Positions 12,651 to 12,905 of a DNA stretch of 30,483 nt are shown piece after piece. This DNA comes from a virus, in IMG/VR virus record IMGVR_UViG_3300017746_000081, positions 1 to 30,483 of that record. One strand, 5' to 3'. Position numbers and translations under genes: made by a program. A model generated the notes under the pieces. It was not told where the DNA came from, made no database searches, and saw nothing but the letters and a program-made list of their open reading frames with translations. How positions within the stretch are numbered: position 1 is the first letter of the stretch; each line of letters begins with the position of its first letter.

Positions 12651-12718
12651 GGTGACAAAACGGGTGACAGAATTTACGAAAAACCCCTCTGGTGACAAAC
12701 GGGTGACAGATTTTACGC
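12651..12718 (-). repeat. Direct repeats in integrase leader (arm-type sites)
   Basis: Two copies of a unit of about 27 bases lie 40 bases apart (12651-12678 and 12691-12717). Each has GGTGACAAA, then CGGGTGACAGA, then TTTACG. That gives four GGTGACA motifs on one side of the tRNA core. GGTGACA also occurs on the other side (12881, 12891). These look like integrase arm-binding sites. Confidence 0.65.
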
Positions 12719-12740
12719 ATAACTAATTTACATCTGTCAA
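12710..12740 (-). promoter_or_regulatory. Candidate integrase promoter
   Basis: On the minus strand TTGACA (12735-12740) and TAAAAT (12710-12715) are separated by 19 bases, slightly long for sigma-70. The predicted transcript would start near 12703 and run through the GGTGACA repeats before the ATG at 12644, so integrase bound to its arm sites could repress its own gene. Confidence 0.45.
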
Positions 12741-12794
12741 CACTTTTAAACACTCTCAATCCCATACTAGGAGTGGTGATTAGTGTTCCACGGG

Positions 12795-12844
12795 TGGTGG
12801 CGAAACCCAGAATCGAACTGGGGACACAAGGATTTTCAGTCCTC
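12795..12844 (-). other. attP core: 3' part of tRNA-Phe(GAA) gene
   Basis: On the minus strand the bases fold as the 3' portion of a tRNA: anticodon arm GAGGA-CTGAAAA-TCCTT (anticodon GAA, Phe), variable loop GTGTC, T-arm CCCAG-TTCGATT-CTGGG, acceptor strand TTTCGCC, discriminator A, and encoded CCA. The D-arm and 5' acceptor strand are absent upstream, so it is not a working tRNA gene. Integration by crossover here would rebuild an intact tRNA-Phe in the host, the common strategy of tRNA-targeting phages. The integrase gene and arm repeats flank it. Confidence 0.85.
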
Positions 12845-12850
12845 TTATTA

Positions 12851-12899
12851 TGTCACATTAATACTGAGGTTCAGAGCCTTGGTGACATATGGTGACATT
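12851..12899 (+). repeat. Arm-type repeats on the other side of attP
   Basis: GGTGACATATGGTGACATTA (12881-12900) holds two direct GGTGACA motifs 10 bases apart, one helical turn. An inverted TGTCAC is at 12851-12856. Together with the four copies in the integrase leader they bracket the tRNA core as P and P' arms would. Confidence 0.6.
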
Positions 12900-12905
12900 A
12901 TTTTC

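Follow-up and report, generated by a model that had tools for sequence, protein, structure and literature searches.

When a fragment of a tRNA gene lies between short repeats and beside an integrase gene, the question arises of whether it is the attachment site of the phage, whether that site is intact, and which host gene it matches. Such a locus was analysed in a viral sequence of 30,483 bp (hereafter, the window), which is the entire IMG/VR record IMGVR_UViG_3300017746_000081. It was concluded that the locus is very probably an intact attP, belonging to a temperate tailed phage that infects marine Opitutales and would integrate at the tRNA-Phe(GAA) gene by means of its own integrase. The features on which this proposal is based are listed in Table 1.

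The core and its identity

The core (GAGGACTGAAAATCCTTGTGTCCCCAGTTCGATTCTGGGTTTCGCCACCA, read on the minus strand) comprises the anticodon arm with the anticodon GAA, the variable loop, the T-arm, the 3′ strand of the acceptor stem and the terminal CCA. It is identical to nucleotides 27–76 of complete tRNA-Phe genes called by ARAGORN, bearing out the earlier note, in which this segment was read from the letters alone as a perfect tRNA 3′ portion devoid of its 5′ half; the longest mismatch-free identity between the core region and the bacterial gene region is 54 bp. The same note had held that a complete tRNA-Phe 5′ half on the same molecule would contradict this reading; ARAGORN called no tRNA genes in the window, and the best match to the missing half within it has 7 mismatches in 26 positions. 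tRNA-dependent lysogeny combines a short core that cannot restore the tRNA with a tRNA gene of matching isotype in the phage (PMC10865867); in contrast, the 50-bp core described here rebuilds the tRNA, and the window, a partial genome, contains no tRNA genes.

Terminase relatives were found in 37 IMG/VR contigs (42–75% identity), 11 of which carry the same tRNA-Phe core, also without the 5′ half, adjoining int wherever the contig reaches that far. A search for the core in 2.9 million viral contigs, a set that leaves out the record of the window itself, recovered those 11 terminase relatives and no others.

Genes on both sides of the core

To the left of the core, on the minus strand, the window encodes the tyrosine integrase, a PD-(D/E)XK/DUF2800 exonuclease and a DnaB-type helicase. 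The plus-strand genes to the right begin with two ORFs of 72 and 130 residues, after which come the likely small subunit of the terminase, its large subunit and a portal protein with a weak match. Neighbouring genes from either side of the core are found again in relatives that come from other metagenomes. Since phage DNA continues on both sides, the site is an unsplit attP, neither attL nor attR, as had been argued earlier from the presence of phage genes on either side. Host genes next to the site would have spoken against that argument, and the longer contigs of the relatives show phage genes flanking the same site. It had also been proposed that the sequence derives from free, circularised or permuted phage DNA; the unsplit attP agrees with this, and circularity did not gain support, as no terminal repeats were found in the window.

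The terminase gives only partial matches of 22–31% with sequenced phages (Bacillus, Geobacillus and unclassified phages), and the phage group is poorly described. Large ORFs with no PHROG match occupy positions 16546–18831, 20594–22477, 24459–25202 and 26769–29369, in the presumed structural region, where the portal match is also weak.

Table 1. Features of the attachment locus, and integrase ORFs of the sister phages that enclose a tRNA-Val core
Feature	Position	Strand	Basis or remark
Tyrosine integrase, 336 aa from ATG 12644	11634..12644	-	phrog_1, E 7e-25; alignment with relatives
Putative P′ arm-type site TGTCACC, nearest int	12651..12657	-	Repeat sequence, position in relatives
Putative P′ arm-type site TGTCACC	12663..12669	-	Repeat sequence, position in relatives
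Putative P′ arm-type site TGTCACC	12691..12697	-	Repeat sequence, position in relatives
Putative P′ arm-type site TGTCACC	12702..12708	-	Repeat sequence, position in relatives
attP core: 3′ half (nt 27–76) of tRNA-Phe(GAA) with CCA, 50 bp	12795..12844	-	Host-gene identity reaches 12792–12845
Inverted TGTCAC, single, at core edge; maybe chance	12851..12856	+	Not kept in relatives
Putative P arm-type site TGTCACC, nearer the core	12881..12887	-	Repeat sequence, position in relatives
Putative P arm-type site TGTCACC, farther from the core	12891..12897	-	Repeat sequence, position in relatives
72-aa phage ORF, starts just past the P arm	12950..13168	+	ORF at the same place: 49% identical in L026, 34% in L036
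130-aa phage ORF	13155..13547	+	Kept beside attP in 14 relatives examined
Likely terminase small subunit	13510..14175	+	Position and conservation; without family match
Terminase large subunit	14153..15709	+	phrog_2, E 1.8e-20; Pfam Terminase_3, Terminase_6N
int ORFs enclosing a tRNA-Val core	L027 7817–8737; L029 7779–8705; L036 7802–8743; L034 530–1471; L119 3542–4468		

The integrase and the putative arm-type sites

The Pfam Phage_integrase match of the integrase (E 3.6e-5) is under the cut-off of the family; nevertheless, the catalytic residues R200, the K225–228 region, H282/R286, H308 and Y318 are invariant in the alignment of relatives. The AlphaFold model of the protein (pLDDT 81) has lambda Int (1z1b) as its best match among solved structures, and the match covers the entire length. 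No Pfam arm-binding match was obtained for the integrase; the arm-binding domain would comprise about residues 1–50, and the N-terminus of the model shows the layout expected for it, with strands at residues 19–25 and 27–33 and a helix at 36–48. The nearest integrases among sequenced phages are those of Akkermansia phages, with 28–32% identity over about half of the protein. A start of the gene at TTG 12698, as in the listed ORF, was discarded, because the alignment with relatives places it at ATG 12644. Therefore, the four repeats on this side lie in a non-coding leader of int, whose start is separated from the core edge by 151 bp.

On the opposite strand the repeats read GGTGACA, and besides the six copies around the core the window contains only one more, at 28353. 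The four direct copies on the integrase side and the two on the far side had been recognised in the earlier note; the inverted TGTCAC that it counted with them is present (12851), but it is not conserved in the relatives. In these, the repeats are found at about −59, −49, +131, +142, +171 and +183 from the core motif. Within each phage one 7-mer is common to all copies, and it differs between phages: TGTCACC in the window, L045, L047 and L053; TGTCACG in L031, L044 and L048; TGGCACA in L050 and L052; and TGGCACT in L028. Loci that contain only an attL have four copies each, of TGTCACC in L005, TGTCACA in L019 and TGTCAAA in L104. Fixed positions together with concerted change would be expected of sites read by one protein domain, and for this reason the six TGTCACC repeats, two in the P arm and four in the P′ arm, look like arm-type sites that the N-terminal domain of the integrase would bind.

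Covariation of the arm site and integrase residue 16

The last base of the site follows integrase residue 16, which is K in the window phage: K occurs with C, E with G, R with T, and H or F with A. Among the 331 columns of the alignment, this is the sole column whose residue fully determines the last base. In a tree built without the arm-binding domain, in which several forks are open, the K/C and E/G combinations each appear in two separate groups. The association was evaluated by shuffling the bases over lineages, in small samples, ignoring the remaining relatedness and with the residue-16 column already noticed before its test; this gave P = 0.10 for any column and 0.029 for residue 16 with the 7 full-length lineages, P = 0.006 and 0.003 with 9 lineages including two partial proteins, and P = 0.012 and 0.007 with 8 lineages, when L050 and L052 were merged. 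These results (P about 0.01 over few lineages, 7–9) are suggestive of the hypothesis that residue 16 reads the last base of the arm site. They are in line with work on cluster K mycobacteriophages, where the reading of the arm sites was tentatively attributed to residues 17 and 19 of the integrase (PMC3203893). For the third base of the site (T or G), 13 columns distinguish the two variants, and 10 of these columns fall within residues 4–20; a single residue could not be assigned to it, since the lineages with G are too few.

The host and the integrated forms

A 48-bp core gave exact matches in 21 contigs among 84,980 GTDB species genomes. The titles of all 21, from metagenome-assembled genomes (MAGs) and single cells, name Opitutales, Opitutia or Verrucomicrobia, and in most of them ARAGORN called a full tRNA-Phe at the match. 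These matches support marine Opitutales (Verrucomicrobiota) as the probable host, resolved to the order. The expectation of the earlier note that the core would predict the host by exact match was thus realised at that rank, and the single genus that it anticipated did not emerge. Akkermansia, the host of the phages with the nearest integrases, belongs to the same phylum as the proposed host.

Junctions of the attL type, with related integrases directly behind an intact tRNA-Phe, were observed in three genomes of the Opitutales group (L005, L019 and L104). In L005, from single cell AG-892-I21, behind the intact tRNA-Phe come the P′ arm and an int 72–73% identical to that of the window. In MAG cluster4_bin.15, contig L019 runs from tRNA-Phe into an int of the window family, and a second contig, L017, starts at the core (a putative attR at the contig end). 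In L104 (G256), a similar int follows tRNA-Phe. The earlier note had proposed a look for prophages bounded by this repeat in the host; the junctions above are those of related integrases, and complete prophages of this clade did not appear: a search of 373 genomes of the host order with a terminase profile gave no hits. The integrase profile recovered G001 and G256 as close members, with weaker ones elsewhere, and a class-level integrase search with a stricter cut-off recovered G001 only. Three of the 21 contigs (L007, L012 and L017) break at the core, a pattern that repeated copies of the core among the sampled cells would be expected to produce, other causes being possible as well.

Several of these loci show further features. 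In L005 int alone remains and bacterial-looking genes come next; this solitary integrase, which is intact and lies behind tRNA-Phe together with its P′ arm, the rest of the prophage being absent, is found at L005/L080 2741–3787, and no second att copy was detected near it on the contig, down to 12-mers. In L104, the window-family integrase is followed, between 4 and 20 kb, by a primase-like gene and other non-phage-like ORFs, and it may be that integrases of this family also serve another kind of element. In single cell AH-709-J17, an element with an unrelated integrase of 459 residues (L084, 1–10990) ends at the same core in an attR-like manner; therefore, tRNA-Phe is a shared insertion site in the Opitutales host group.

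Alternative explanations

Phages often carry tRNA genes, and the fragment could be a decayed gene of this kind instead of an attachment core; for example, Acinetobacter phage MD-2021a has a tRNA-Phe that is 92% identical over 48 bp. Nevertheless, exactly the 3′ half is kept in 11/11 core-bearing relatives, with the last 45–50 bp 96–100% identical, and it adjoins int between the arm repeats; furthermore, host genes with the same sequence stand directly before related integrases, so that decay is scarcely credible. Another reading is that the sequence represents an attR, or the junction of tandem prophages, at the end of an integrated phage. An attR would likewise show a tRNA 3′ half without the 5′ half, as L084 does in a bacterial contig. 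This is very unlikely for the window, where the core is enclosed by a single phage, with its terminase side on one flank and its replication side on the other. Relatives from independent metagenomes keep this order, and host genes are seen on neither side; a tandem junction would need the identical arrangement in 11 contigs.

The third possibility concerns the repeats, which are putative arm sites. GTGACA-type repeats could be operators of a repressor or other regulator that flank the core by chance, and the four copies in the int leader occupy a typical operator place. This is improbable, although less so than the two readings above, considering that two repeats lie beyond the core with a spacing that is fixed in the relatives, that the repeat changes along with the N-terminus of the integrase, and that a group whose integrase is without the arm-binding domain is without the repeats too.

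Proposed mechanism of integration

As an intact attP, the locus would take part in a lambda-like reaction in which Int bridges the arm sites and the core, with strand exchange inside the tRNA sequence. The partner of the window core, itself a tRNA 3′ half, would be the corresponding half of the tRNA-Phe(GAA) gene of the host. After integration, the phage copy would complete the host tRNA, with the P′ arm and then int, in the same direction, behind it (attL), and the displaced host 3′ half would mark the opposite end (attR). Because the four arm sites reach the start codon of int, Int bound in the leader would be expected to repress its own gene. A terminator supplied by the phage for the rebuilt tRNA was considered as a general mechanism and rejected, given that it fits some relatives only: hairpins are strong in L005, L031, L044 and L052 and weaker in L047 and L053, and no terminator hairpin was found in the window, L019, L028 or L048.

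Sister phages

By terminase, the closest relatives of the window are L023–L026 (75%), yet their integrase is only about 34% identical; their core, which lies some 300 bp upstream of int, is that of a tRNA-Val(GAC) and has arms of the CGCCACC type. From this different integrase and core, it appears that integrase and attP were exchanged as one module.

In another group (L027, L029, L030, L033–L038 and L119, among others), the tRNA-Val(GAC) 3′ half lies within the int ORF (MHDTHEVGSSNLPSPT). No recognisable arm-binding domain and no arm repeats were detected in these phages, and the model of their integrase is of low confidence, with residues 8–44 below pLDDT 50. The tRNA-Val core of this group is present exactly in 13 of the 373 genomes of the host order, and no integrated copies of this type were found in the 373. 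When the 5′ flank of the host tRNA-Val was joined in silico to the phage side, int remained open, starting at an in-frame ATG in the anticodon stem of the tRNA, with its own start and promoter left behind. With about even chances, these phages carry a self-beheading integrase, for which integration would swap the promoter and start codon of int for the host tRNA gene. Contig L101 was considered as an integrated form of this type and discarded, as its int does not overlap tRNA-Val.

A separate observation was made in L051. Upstream of its int ORF (1329–2387), TGGCAACA-type repeats enclose one half of a tRNA-Thr(TGT)-like sequence, in this case the 5′ instead of the 3′ half; it would be an unusual attP core, if it is a core.

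Comparison with known systems

The attP of the window is an ordinary site of a known kind. The cluster K mycobacteriophages CrimD, Anaya, Adephagia and Pixie also have an RNA-gene attP core beside int and paired arm-type sites on both sides, and the sites of relatives differ at one position (PMC3203893). These phages belong to a different host phylum and target tmRNA or tRNA-Lys, and some of them have a stem-loop in the interval from core to arm (PMC3203893), in contrast with the window, which has no hairpin. CrimD has two pairs of sites in opposite orientation, whereas the window has two plus four in direct orientation; likewise, the residues put forward in cluster K are 17 and 19, and the covarying one here is residue 16, over 7–9 lineages.

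As suggested by the full-length fold match of its model, the integrase resembles that of lambda, whose arm-binding, core-binding and catalytic parts make it a heterobivalent tyrosine integrase. On the other hand, the lambda core is intergenic and of 15 bp, compared with the 50-bp tRNA 3′ half described here, and neither accessory protein sites nor a recombination directionality factor (RDF) were identified in the window phage. IntS of KplE1 is similar in that its tRNA-associated attL overlaps the int leader and int reads away from the tRNA; its self-repression was demonstrated (PMC2951348), whereas that of the window integrase is inferred, and host and integrase are different. The nearest integrases are those of the Akkermansia phages Chantilly, Chambord and Moulinsart, whose host is of the same phylum; these phages are absent from the terminase matches. 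In the archaeal 'suicidal' integrases attP is inside int (PMC8371274), unlike the window, where the core is upstream of the gene.

Significance

The added value of this locus resides in the natural series of arm-site variants and in the unusual sister group with the attachment site within int. For an uncultured phage clade that weakly matches sequenced phages, the analysis provides a probable host order and a site of insertion, and the attP/attB pair is a candidate integration tool for Opitutales. In the relatives, the sequence of the arm site and residue 16 change together, which makes the choice of DNA by arm-binding domains directly testable. Integrases that disrupt their own gene were called exclusive to archaea in a 2021 review (PMC8371274). 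The sister clade may provide a bacterial example of an integrase gene that contains its own attachment site and, if true, the self-beheading integrase would be the bacterial counterpart of the archaeal 'suicidal' integrases.
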